The position numbers and the translations under genes were made by a program. The notes under the pieces are model-generated. The model was given only the letters and a program-made list of their open reading frames with translations, was not told where the DNA came from and searched no databases. This document shows positions 7,877 through 13,169 of a DNA stretch of 40,624 nucleotides, piece after piece; within the stretch, counting starts at the first letter, position 1, and the number at the start of each line of letters is the position of its first letter. Source of the stretch: an uncultured Pseudomonadota bacterium (GTDB lineage Bacteria > Pseudomonadota > Alphaproteobacteria > RF32 > CAG-239); assembly GCA_949295005.1 (NCBI GenBank), contig CASFJL010000012.1, positions 1 to 40,624 of the forward strand, in the 5' to 3' direction.

Positions 7877-8311
7877 TTATTTAATTTTTTCCAGTCTACC
7901 GGTTGCGGTGAGTTTGAAACCACGTTGGGCAAGAGCAAGTTGTCCGGCCTCGTCATAAGTGTAAAAATAAACAAGTTCTCGTTCATTGATGCTATTGGCA
8001 TCGATAGCGGCTTCCGGTATGCCCCAAATGACGGAAATCGGCCAGGTTAGCAGATTGAGAAAACCATAGAGATATTGCTCGCTGTCTCCGGCATTGCCAG
8101 CGGCAAGATAAAAGTTGCCGACACCGGGGAGTAGGTTTAGTGCACCGGCGGCTCCGGCTTTTGCCGGTTTTTTCCAGTTGCCGACAGGTTTGTCGATTGT
8201 AATTCCCTCTGCTTCTAAATTGCGGATGGTTATTCTTTCTTGATGAGAAAGAGAGGTGCAGCCGGAAAGCAAGATTGCCGCGGCGGTGCTTAAACTTAAA
8301 AGTTTGTTCAT
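7877..8311 (-). CDS. Small lipoprotein of unknown function
   Basis: A 144-aa protein with a clear lipoprotein signal: MNKLL, a hydrophobic stretch, then the lipobox LLSGC with the lipidated Cys at residue 18. The mature part contains a glycine/alanine-rich hydrophobic hairpin (AGAAGALNLLPGVGNFYLAAGN) and a second apolar segment around FLNLLTWPISVIWGIPEAA, so it may contact the membrane beyond its lipid anchor. The start is supported by AAAGGA about 9 bases upstream. The gene lies immediately behind the terminator of the structured RNA at 8343-8575, so that element may be its leader. I do not recognise the family beyond lipoprotein. Confidence 0.85.
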   Translation of the reverse strand: MNKLLSLSTAAAILLSGCTSLSHQERITIRNLEAEGITIDKPVGNWKKPAKAGAAGALNLLPGVGNFYLAAGNAGDSEQYLYGFLNLLTWPISVIWGIPEAAIDANSINERELVYFYTYDEAGQLALAQRGFKLTATGRLEKIK

Positions 8312-8342
8312 ACGTCTAACGTCCTTTGCTAAAAGTTTGATT

Positions 8343-8378
8343 TAAAAAGCAAAACCGCCAAGAGAAAACTCGAGGCGG
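8343..8378 (-). terminator. Minus-strand terminator at the end of the structured RNA
   Basis: On the minus strand CCGCC (plus 8374-8378) pairs with GGCGG (plus 8355-8359), with an inner GAG/CTC pair, followed by TTTTGCTTTTT. It lies between the structured element and the lipoprotein start codon, the position of an attenuator or an sRNA 3' end. Confidence 0.75.
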
Positions 8379-8575
8379 GCGGATGTTAGAAAACCGTATA
8401 AACGCAGACGGCCCAGCTTTATTCAGCACGTAGCCTTATTCAGCCGACATCCGCCCACAAATGGACGGAGATCGGCATATTTATTTTTAGTCGTAATGCG
8501 ACGACTGCGTTTATTTAGGGTTTTCTAGGCCCGTAGCAAAACTCTTTTCTAGGGAGCTTTGCTTCCTTAAAACTA
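8343..8575 (-). ncRNA. Candidate structured RNA (sRNA or cis-regulatory leader)
   Basis: This gap has no good reading frame but is far richer in G+C than its surroundings and dense with complementarity. A long helix pairs plus 8387-8407 with 8505-8527 (9 bp and 10 bp around a small internal loop). It encloses a hairpin at 8489-8506 and a 5+6 bp hairpin at 8443-8476, and two near-identical units reading GCTGAATAA on the minus strand. A second 10-bp pairing, 8377-8386 with 8447-8456, would compete with the inner hairpin or make a pseudoknot with the long helix. A 9-bp hairpin lies toward the 5' end near 8536-8562. I could not match it to tmRNA, RNase P RNA, 4.5S RNA, 6S RNA or a named riboswitch by its conserved words. 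The 5' end is a guess. Confidence 0.6.
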
Positions 8576-8610
8576 ATGGTAATATAAAAATAAATCAAGA
8601 TATTTTTGTA

Positions 8611-10032
8611 TCAAATCACATTTTGTTTGCGATTTAGCATTGCGGCCATGGTTAAAGATGTGGTGATAGCGGCATCATTATCTTGTCTGCGGTTAAATAC
8701 GTCTTTGCCTCTTTTTCCGCTGGCGGCATTTTCTAAAACAGTTTTGAACTGTTGAGAACCAAAATTATAACCAAAATGCGAGCCCGTAATATGCCCAATA
8801 TTGTGACCATATTCAGGGTCTGTAATATCAATGAGCTTTTCTTTGTTATTAACTAATGTGAATTTTTCTTCATTTCTCAGAGCAACAACAAAGTTTCTTT
8901 GATCAGGCATTATGGAAACTTTTGCCGGAAGGGTGCTTCCTTCTTGATATTTGCATGTTTCATAAAGCTCAGGGCTGTTCATTTTGCTAAAAGGTTCTTT
9001 TTTGCCGGTGTCATTTGCCTCATTGGAGAAAAAATGCACCCCTGAATAGTTTAAATTTTTGCTCAATGGCAAAAAGCCATAGCTGATTAAGAATAAATTG
9101 TGAAGAGCTTCTTTAGTTTCAGCTTCAGAGTAAACTTGAGAAGAAATTTGTTCCAAGGCAGTGCTAATGCGGTGTGCGTCTGCAGTGCCGGCACAATAAC
9201 TCATAAATGTTAGATTGCTAAAGTTTTGCTTGAGTTGCTCTTTATTATATTTTTTTGCTTGCAATACTTTGCCTTCATTATCAACCTCTATTTGAGAAGA
9301 AATGAAAGGTAGAAAAGCTTGTTTGACTAAGCTTAAGTCTTGTTCTTCAACGTATGTTTCCGGATGCAAAATGGTGCGGATGGTGGAGCTGATTTTGGCA
9401 CAACGAGATTTTTGAATTGGAAAATAGGCAACATATACATCAACATCTTGTCCAAAAACTTGCTTGTTATCCAATGAATGATACATATTTTTATAAAGCC
9501 ATTTTTTTAATTCCGCTTCATTATTTTTGATGCGAAAAGGCATAAATAAAACCAGATTTTTGCGCTTTGGGTTAAGCAGAGTGTGTTGATTGTCTGAGCG
9601 GAGATTTTCAATGCCATCAGATAAATCTAATTTGCAAAAAAGATATCCGGCATTGTCATCAAAATTATGATTATCTCCTTTAATTTGTCCGTTGCAAGAT
9701 ACAACATAATGGCTTGAGGCATCAAACAAGCGCAACATATCTTGGTCACAGGTGAATTTGCTGTCGATATTATGCAAAACTTTTTGAGCATCTCTCATAT
9801 AACCACGCAGAAATAAGGCGTATTGTCTCAGGCTTTTTTCATCTATGGCATATCTTTGCGAATCAATCGGTGGAATGTTAGAAGTTATAAAAAAACAATT
9901 TAGCTCTGATAAAAATTTTTTAACACGCTCTGGTGTTTGTTCATTGTTACTATGGTTGAGAAAAATGCTTTTGTGTAAGACATCTTCTTGCATAGCATTA
10001 TAAAATATTTTGGCAAATGGGTTATTGTTCAT
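8611..10032 (-). CDS. Unrecognised 473-aa protein
   Basis: I do not recognise this family. The protein is soluble, with no signal peptide or membrane helix. The start is taken at MNNNPFAKIF (10032) because an upstream in-frame extension would run across the esterase start on the other strand. Visible elements are a possible nucleophile-elbow-like SYCAGTADAHR near the middle, a beta-rich stretch (VDVYVAYFP), and a His/Gly-rich C-terminus (YGHNIGHITGSHFGYNFG). These could fit a divergent hydrolase fold, but that is speculation. The C-terminus contains an Arg/Asp-rich GKRGKDVFNRRQDND. It is transcribed toward the structured RNA, which could alternatively be its 3' untranslated region. Confidence 0.75.
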   Translation of the reverse strand: MNNNPFAKIFYNAMQEDVLHKSIFLNHSNNEQTPERVKKFLSELNCFFITSNIPPIDSQRYAIDEKSLRQYALFLRGYMRDAQKVLHNIDSKFTCDQDMLRLFDASSHYVVSCNGQIKGDNHNFDDNAGYLFCKLDLSDGIENLRSDNQHTLLNPKRKNLVLFMPFRIKNNEAELKKWLYKNMYHSLDNKQVFGQDVDVYVAYFPIQKSRCAKISSTIRTILHPETYVEEQDLSLVKQAFLPFISSQIEVDNEGKVLQAKKYNKEQLKQNFSNLTFMSYCAGTADAHRISTALEQISSQVYSEAETKEALHNLFLISYGFLPLSKNLNYSGVHFFSNEANDTGKKEPFSKMNSPELYETCKYQEGSTLPAKVSIMPDQRNFVVALRNEEKFTLVNNKEKLIDITDPEYGHNIGHITGSHFGYNFGSQQFKTVLENAASGKRGKDVFNRRQDNDAAITTSLTMAAMLNRKQNVI

Positions 10033-10103
10033 GGTCTTGTATTCTTTTTTTGTTATGTTAATATTCCTATATTCAAGTCTTATATAATTTAGGAGAGTTT
10101 GTC

Positions 10104-10796
10104 TTGTCACATTATGTTCATAAGTGTTACAACAAAGGTAAAACACCTCATAAATTGGTCTTCTTTATTCATGGATATAACGGTTCTGCCGCAGATATTG
10201 ATTATGCCGCGCAGATGCTTTTGGCAAAATTAGATAACGTATGCCTTGTTTTGCCCGAAGCCACAGATGTTTGTGAAAAAAATCCGGAAAAGAAACAATG
10301 GTTCAGTTTGCGTCAGTTCGACTCTCAAGATTTGCGCCGAAATCCTCAAACGTCGGTTGAACAGGTTGTAGATATTTATAATCACGTCGGCGAAGATATG
10401 CTCAAAGTTGCCAGAAATTTGAACCAAATGTTAGATGAAGCACAACAAGAATATCAAATCGGTGATGACAACACATATATCATGGGCTTTTCTCAAGGGG
10501 CAATGCTTGCTATTTTTACTTCCTTAATCAGAAAAAATCCAGTTAAAGCTTGTTTTGCTCTTTCCGGTATTGTTGCCGGAAAAGACGAGTTGGCAAAACA
10601 TATATTGTCTCATCCAAAAGTATTTATGTTTCATGGAAAAGAGGATTTATCAGTACAGTATAAAACTTTAGATTTTTCATTAAACTGGTTGGCAGAGCAT
10701 CATATTCCGGTCACGGATTTTCGTTATGATGGGTTGGCTCATCGCATGATTGATGATGAGATGAAAGTTATTGCTAAGGAAATTTTATCTGACTGA
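10104..10796 (+). CDS. Phospholipase/carboxylesterase-type serine hydrolase
   Basis: A 230-aa alpha/beta hydrolase of the phospholipase/carboxylesterase (Abhydrolase_2, YpfH-like) family. It shows an oxyanion-side FFIHGYNGSAAD, the nucleophile elbow GFSQGA with the catalytic Ser, a catalytic Asp in FHGKEDLSVQ and a His in GLAHRM. Substrates of this family are esters or thioesters and are not predictable here. The start is a TTG at 10104, chosen because AGGAGAG lies 7 bases upstream and no suitable in-frame ATG occurs nearby. It is cytoplasmic, with no signal peptide, and is divergent from the 473-aa gene with a compact shared upstream region. Confidence 0.85.
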   Translation: MSHYVHKCYNKGKTPHKLVFFIHGYNGSAADIDYAAQMLLAKLDNVCLVLPEATDVCEKNPEKKQWFSLRQFDSQDLRRNPQTSVEQVVDIYNHVGEDMLKVARNLNQMLDEAQQEYQIGDDNTYIMGFSQGAMLAIFTSLIRKNPVKACFALSGIVAGKDELAKHILSHPKVFMFHGKEDLSVQYKTLDFSLNWLAEHHIPVTDFRYDGLAHRMIDDEMKVIAKEILSD

Positions 10797-12293: not shown

Positions 12294-13169
12294 TTATTTT
12301 AGTTTTTCATAAACAAGTTTGGATACTTGGGCGATGAGATTGGCGTTTTGATCATTACTCATCTTAGAGTTTTTAATCAATACCACGATGTAATAAATTT
12401 CTCCATTAGGAAGAACGATAAATCCGGCATCATTATCGCCGATTTTTACACCATTATCATCTCTGTCTGATGAGCCTGTTTTGTGTCCGATAACAATTTC
12501 ATTCGGTAGTCCGGCTTTGAGCTTATTGTTGCCTGTTTGAGTTTGTTGCATTATCTTTTTGAAAATATCCGTTTGCTTTGAAGAAAGAATTTTTCCATCA
12601 TTAACGGCTTTCAAAAATAAGGCAATATCTTGAGGTCGGGCAACATTTAATTTTTGGTTTTGAATATCTTCGCTCATTTGTTTTTCAGTGGCTTTGATTA
12701 CAATTTGCGGAAAGCTAGCTGATGAAATAAATTGATTGAGATTATCCATGCCGCCTAAATAAGATATAAGAACATCTGTGGCGATATTATCACTTTGTGC
12801 AAGCATGTATGTAAGCAGTTCTTCTATGGTGCTTTGGTAAGGATATTTTTTTATTTTGTCTCTTAGGGGACTATAAGTTTGATAAATCATATCTTGAGAG
12901 ATGATGATAGGGCTATTTAATGATACATTTTCTTTTTCTATCTTGTCTAAAACTGCAGCAGCAACAAAGATTTTGAACACACTCATCATGGGATAAGTCT
13001 CAGTATTGTTTAGAAAAAAGTTTTTATTTCCTTTGATAACAGCCACACCGACATTACAATTTTTGTTTAACAATAAACTTTGTAATTTATATTGCAGGCT
13101 GTTTGTATATGAATAAACAGTGAAACCAAAGGTTGCGCATAAGATAAAAACAAAAATCTTTATTTTCAT
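12294..13169 (-). CDS. Class A beta-lactamase, A2 (CfxA/PER/VEB-like) type
   Basis: A 291-aa periplasmic serine beta-lactamase that hydrolyses the beta-lactam ring. A signal sequence (KIKIFVFILCATFGFTVYS) opens the protein. Catalytic motifs are complete: S63-V-F-K66 (SxxK), S126-D-N128 (SDN), E162 in ATEKQMSED for the deacylating Glu, and K230-T-G232. The segment around E162, lacking the usual ExELN and continuing to QKLN, and the GHKTGSSDRD block match the A2 subgroup that includes CfxA, CblA, PER and VEB. The spectrum cannot be read from sequence. It has its own promoter and a GNAT gene downstream. Base composition resembles the surroundings, so any acquisition was not recent. Confidence 0.92.
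   Translation of the reverse strand: MKIKIFVFILCATFGFTVYSYTNSLQYKLQSLLLNKNCNVGVAVIKGNKNFFLNNTETYPMMSVFKIFVAAAVLDKIEKENVSLNSPIIISQDMIYQTYSPLRDKIKKYPYQSTIEELLTYMLAQSDNIATDVLISYLGGMDNLNQFISSASFPQIVIKATEKQMSEDIQNQKLNVARPQDIALFLKAVNDGKILSSKQTDIFKKIMQQTQTGNNKLKAGLPNEIVIGHKTGSSDRDDNGVKIGDNDAGFIVLPNGEIYYIVVLIKNSKMSNDQNANLIAQVSKLVYEKLK

Follow-up and report, generated by a model that had tools for sequence, protein, structure and literature searches.

Organisation of the leader locus

The window, that is the whole stretch of 40,624 nucleotides analysed here, carries a structured region between two ORFs of the minus strand, a lipoprotein ORF without a match in Pfam or NCBIfam and, upstream of the structured region, a 511-aa ORF (8611-10146) with no Pfam match. 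On this strand, the structured leader is followed by an intrinsic terminator, a spacer of 16 nt, a ribosome-binding site (RBS) and the lipoprotein gene, whose RBS and start (AAAGGACGTTAGACGTATG) lie 16 nt past the terminator (Table 1). This is the arrangement that an earlier note, made from the sequence alone, had described as a lipoprotein ORF placed directly downstream of a structured stretch. The note had also seen a GC island in AT-rich DNA, and indeed the GC content of the core is 0.48 compared to 0.35 in the whole window, a value attained by 2.6% of 157-bp windows, although the adjoining lipoprotein gene is equally GC-rich (0.49). The 233-nt stretch is more stable than 200 of 200 shuffles on both strands (z = -6.2 on the plus and -6.5 on the minus strand). 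The plus-strand RNA folds well too, but gene, terminator, and promoter-like hexamers are all on the minus strand, which is the functional strand of the leader RNA. Elsewhere on the minus strand, a 291-aa ORF (12294-13169) has by eye the look of a class A serine beta-lactamase, with motifs SVFK, SDN, and KTG.

Table 1. Features of the leader locus (positions in the window)
Feature	Position	Strand	Basis or remark
Conserved leader core (covariance model R1, 151 positions)	8377..8533	-	E = 5.8e-28 in own genome; 182 distinct copies gathered
Candidate -35 element TTGATT of the leader's promoter	8593..8598	-	60-65 nt upstream of core; -10 not clear in window copy
Small hairpin P0, 5' of core	8536..8562	-	Window fold; mean z -2.2 over 120 copies
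5' strands b1 (8527-8519) and a1 (8514-8505) of 19-bp helix	8505..8527	-	Covariation
Hairpin P2	8489..8506	-	Covariation of columns 39/55
Hairpin P3 of fold I, with segment B in its 3' arm	8443..8476	-	Covariation
Segment B (GGGCGGATGT)	8447..8456	-	Partner: P3 5' arm (fold I) or 8386-8377 (fold II)
Two GCTGAATAA units around inner hairpin of fold II stem P2	8416..8444	-	Sequence
Fold II stem P3 (GCCGT/ACGGT), variable a' strand 8407-8398 in its loop	8393..8412	-	Covariation
Strand b', 3' partner of b1	8387..8395	-	Covariation
Anti-RBS TCTAACATCC	8381..8390	-	9/10 positions complementary to RBS GGACGTTAGA
Intrinsic terminator, CCGCC...GGCGG then T-rich tail	8344..8378	-	Fold; T-run after 176/182 copies
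RBS region AAAGGACGTTAGA of lipoprotein gene	8315..8327	-	Sequence
144-aa lipoprotein ORF, lipobox LLSGC	7877..8311	-	ORF list, lipobox; putative target of leader

Upstream of the core, promoter-like hexamers are concentrated at set distances over 180 copies of the leader, the TTGACA-like ones with a maximum at 55-59 nt (63 versus 5 in shuffles) and the TATAAT-like ones at 30-39 nt. Start codons lie mostly about 40-65 nt past the core, leaving no space for a second promoter, and this spacing suggests that the downstream gene is transcribed by, and would depend on, read-through of the terminator.

Copies of the leader and their downstream genes

In the genome of the window, BLAST returned three further matches, two of them true copies and the third the terminator region only, giving three leader copies in total; in a wider BLAST search, 20 of 53 genomes carried copies. 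A covariance model built from 30 copies detected the leader in 124 of the 152 genomes of the window's family. The total, summed over two result tables, is about 400 copies, with up to 54 per genome; each of five copy-rich genomes had 20 to 54 on rescoring. In these genomes (G137 with 54 copies; G104, G105, G107, and G109 with 20-31), the leader together with a secreted-protein gene has undergone a massive expansion; in G137, the downstream genes encode mostly BspA-type LRR proteins and are spread over many contigs. Tandem leaders about 90-150 nt apart were also observed (L064:201-350 and 505-660; L116:2001-2155 and 2242-2355). Sampling 385 genomes for the wider class gave 18 positives, four from the window's own family and the others scattered over other families. 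The named records with copies are metagenome-assembled genomes of gut Alphaproteobacteria, including 'Azospirillum sp. CAG:239', and a literature search found no earlier description of the leader in this bacterial group.

The downstream ORFs tend to encode exported or membrane-bound products, since 136 of 173 (about 79%, by a simple heuristic and with no genome background) have an N-terminal signal peptide, a lipobox or a membrane segment. Pfam analysis of 124 downstream ORFs revealed BspA-type LRR proteins (15), outer-membrane beta-barrels (8), opacity porins (7), PEGA (6), Chlamydia PMP repeats (5), and EcoRI methylases (4), as well as HTH repressors. Genes of EcoRI-type adenine methylases stand behind the leader in several genera (L018, L069, L074, and L110).

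Carriage by phages or plasmids was considered and set aside. Plasmids gave no match to the leader, and the model did not confirm any of seven viral contigs that showed the DNA pattern, nor the pattern matches in Bacteroidota, Acidobacteriota, Bacillota, and others. The one exception is MT836653.1, a 9-kb scaffold from human faeces (unverified, 'Bacteriophage sp.'), with a full leader copy (L344:577-725) that precedes an 890-aa autotransporter-like ORF; two serine recombinase-like ORFs lie nearby, and a mobile element may here carry the leader along with its gene. This scaffold and the many scattered copies per genome are what would be expected of a dispersed repeat or mobile element sitting before genes by chance, a reading that we consider highly improbable given the constant place of the leader before ORFs with a matching RBS, the promoter-like hexamers at a fixed distance and the covariation of two competing folds.

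Two mutually exclusive folds and complementarity to the RBS

The earlier note had proposed a structured RNA with mutually exclusive pairings, and its elements were recovered in the window: the 19-bp long-range helix consists of 9 bp (8527-8519/8395-8387) and 10 bp (8514-8505/8407-8398), the repeated unit GCTGAATAA occurs at 8444-8436 and 8427-8419, and the 10-base segment 8456-8447, here named segment B, is complementary to a local partner within 8476-8463 and also to 8386-8377 beside the terminator. We define fold I as the 19-bp helix plus hairpin P3, and fold II as a three-stem structure, similar to C4 and sRNA-Xcc1, with the pairings of B with the anti-RBS strand, UCGG/CCGA, and GCCGU/ACGGU.

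Covariation was evaluated in alignment A3, made of 88 distant copies. In fold I, 485 cells are changed on both sides, compared to 132 in shuffles, and 99.1% of cells are paired, a percentage biased towards fold I because A3 was aligned to the fold I model. Nearly all four Watson-Crick pairs are seen at each of seven positions of a1/a', a diversity beyond what alignment to the fold I model alone could yield. Fold II, which is absent from the alignment model, shows 89 doubly changed cells against 18 +- 3.5, with none of 500 shuffles as high. The UCGG columns covary with both of their alternative partners. The compensatory changes in relatives, which the note had named as the test, thus extend to both the 19-bp helix and the 10-bp pairing, indicating that both mutually exclusive folds are maintained in evolution. 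In many copies, the P2 loop GCAY can in addition pair with RUGC just 5' of P3 (cells paired 77-91% in alignment A2, weaker in A3), a possible pseudoknot.

Folding predictions gave fold I in 113 of 115 terminated leaders, while in isolated 3' domains, the C4 stem P1 is formed in 98 of 115. In the terminated RNA of the window copy, fold I has a much lower predicted energy than fold II (-90.0 versus -70.6 kcal/mol). The read-through RNA has a predicted best fold of -98.6 kcal/mol without the anti-RBS/RBS pairing and of -94.4 when this pairing is forced. Both energy predictions for the window copy count against the model of control proposed below.

AACAUCC, the leader segment adjoining the terminator, is the complement of the next gene's RBS, GGAUGUU; over the full length of the window pair there is a single mismatch. 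Across lineages, compensated anti-RBS/RBS pairs were found (AACACCC/GGGTGTT, AGCATCC/GGATGC, and TAACTCCC/GGAGTTA), many of the AACACCC copies being paralogues. Complementarity extends to the adjacent base in 55 of 113 copies versus 36 expected, a value reached in 0 of 10,000 shuffles and uncorrected for relatedness. Within the scanned region, a GGATG-like RBS is present in 138 of 182 copies and lacking in about 44. As judged from sequence comparison, this complementarity with covariation between lineages is new here. In genome G137, AAGGATGTT occurs 31 times at 12 nt or less from an ATG, mostly just behind leaders, and 0 times in the reversed control; in the window's own genome, it occurs near an ATG 4 times (control, 1), with 2 of the 4 sites behind leaders. 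For the most part, the RBS motif is found next to leaders.

Complementarity to the RBS, which the earlier note had missed, is a better account of the architecture than the riboswitch-like reading put forward there. The anatomy does fit a riboswitch, as two exclusive folds with terminator and RBS as outputs are present together with strongly conserved nucleotides outside the paired regions, and the GAAUAAGGC/AAUAAGCC region plus P2 with its possible pseudoknot could form a pocket through which the folds respond to a metabolite. A ligand-binding riboswitch is nevertheless distinctly unlikely in our view, considering that the downstream genes have cell-envelope location in common and no metabolic pathway, that the 3' half of the RNA resembles antisense RNAs and not a riboswitch, and that no ligand candidate emerged.

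Kinship with antisense RNAs and a candidate mechanism

Antisense RNAs of the C4 type are familiar as devices of phage immunity and as small RNAs whose targets are unclear. In phage P1, C4 has three stems, an a1b1 strand in the precursor and a downstream target RBS with a2 and b2; phage C4 is cleaved by RNase P at the 5' end of P1. A further small RNA, sRNA-Xcc1, is about 90 nt long.

At gathering thresholds, Rfam assigned no family to the window stretch, in agreement with the earlier note, which had matched it to no named RNA. A permissive search, however, showed a kinship that the note had not: the 3' half of the minus strand scored 35.5 bits with sRNA-Xcc1 (RF02221; E = 1e-4, gathering cut-off 53) and 22.3 bits with C4 of phages P1 and P7 (RF01695; E = 0.053, gathering cut-off 45), in the layout of a C4 antisense RNA. 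The best sRNA-Xcc1 score among the copies, 51.7 bits (L163), is still below 53, so direct identification through Rfam yielded only sub-threshold matches. Beyond these scores, the three-stem fold P1/P2/P3 of sRNA-Xcc1 is present as fold II, which covaries, and the upstream a1b1 strand complementary to a' and b' that characterises the C4 precursor is present as the 19-bp helix. With C4, the window RNA shares three stems, a' and b' loops, the upstream strand, and a putative target RBS downstream in the same transcript; it differs in being chromosomal and multi-copy, with no phage antirepressor downstream, and in that its covarying complementarity to the RBS uses the P1 strand plus b', an a2 copy downstream of the leader being absent. 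A c4-a1b1 motif was listed by Weinberg and colleagues (PMC2864571).

Of 398 genomes sampled from the phylum, 39 have sRNA-Xcc1 at a score above the cut-off. In 27 such loci elsewhere (L209-L238), an upstream strand pairs with a'b' in 21 (p <= 0.01) and a b2-SD-a2 copy precedes the ORF in 12 (p <= 0.05), which is the a1b1/a2b2 scheme of phage C4; some of the ORFs behind them resemble phage antirepressors by eye. These observations suggest that a longer leader with two folds is represented by no more than its 3' half in the 87-nt sRNA-Xcc1 model of Rfam. The window class is distinguished from them by its anti-RBS in stem P1 plus b', the lack of a2 and targets that are mostly envelope genes. Full-length homology between the two was rejected, as model R1 reached an E of only 0.012 at best. 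In Xanthomonas integrons, sRNA-Xcc1 has been found upstream of symE (PMC12444791).

Two described systems are close to the window leader. IsrK of the Salmonella prophage Gifsy-1 occurs in two forms, a short RNA that stops at a terminator and a read-through mRNA whose alternative structures mask the RBS, and the short RNA activates its own read-through mRNA in trans (PMC4825925). Compared by description, IsrK resembles the window leader in its terminated short RNA, read-through message, and RBS-masking structures, and differs as a single prophage locus with activation in trans; by analogy, it shows that such a leader can be both a short RNA and a two-structure read-through mRNA. The Acinetobacter baumannii group 1 C4-like sRNAs are multi-copy and chromosomal, with 21 in one strain and a variable a' loop, like the window class; in the available part of that source, which also summarises C4 antisense RNA, they are described as sRNAs with open targets, and no leader role or RBS pairing is described (PMC5320573).

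We regard it as probable, on the strength of these comparisons, that a C4/sRNA-Xcc1-type antisense RNA acts here as the leader of an envelope gene and controls its translation in cis, possibly together with read-through. The leader would be transcribed from its own promoter-like hexamers and end at the intrinsic terminator, the gene being reached by read-through. In fold I, the 5' strands a1 and b1 would capture a' and b' and segment B would close a local hairpin, so that the anti-RBS core AACAUCC, unheld by B, could pair with the RBS of the gene (putative OFF state). In the C4-like fold II, B would pair with the anti-RBS strand and the RBS would therefore be free (putative ON state). The balance may be shifted by cleavage or capture of the 5' part, by trans action of the short RNA of the kind known from IsrK, or by a protein or ligand. 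A C4-type RNA would then be the leader of many host envelope genes, for BspA-type LRR, outer-membrane, and autotransporter-like proteins and lipoproteins, with switch, anti-RBS, and RBS all visible by covariation, and surface-protein regulation in uncultured gut Alphaproteobacteria becomes directly testable.

The RNA might instead act mainly in trans, the terminated form or its C4-like 3' half targeting its own read-through message, as in IsrK (PMC4825925), or other messages, with the variable a1/a' strands as address. This would agree with the description of sRNA-Xcc1 and of the A. baumannii C4-like RNAs as sRNAs (PMC2996969, PMC5320573), and with the variation of a1/a' among copies of one genome, where 6.7 of 7 positions pair in cis and 3.5 between copies. 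We consider it unlikely: a trans regulon through a common RBS motif was rejected, leaderless sites being near chance in the window's own genome (2 sites, control 1), and the divergence of a1, at roughly the fourfold-site rate, can be explained without a selected address code. Diversifying selection on a1/a' was discarded on the same comparison, a1 identity being close to fourfold-site identity.

Within control by the leader of its own gene, a selected address code in a1/a' is possible from the sequences. Tentatively, and as a rather unlikely extension, each locus may have a private RNA address (a1/a') through which the short RNA acts only on its own read-through message, making dozens of insulated, self-addressed antisense switches for surface proteins per genome; if true, these private-address switches would be made of an RNA type used in phage immunity.
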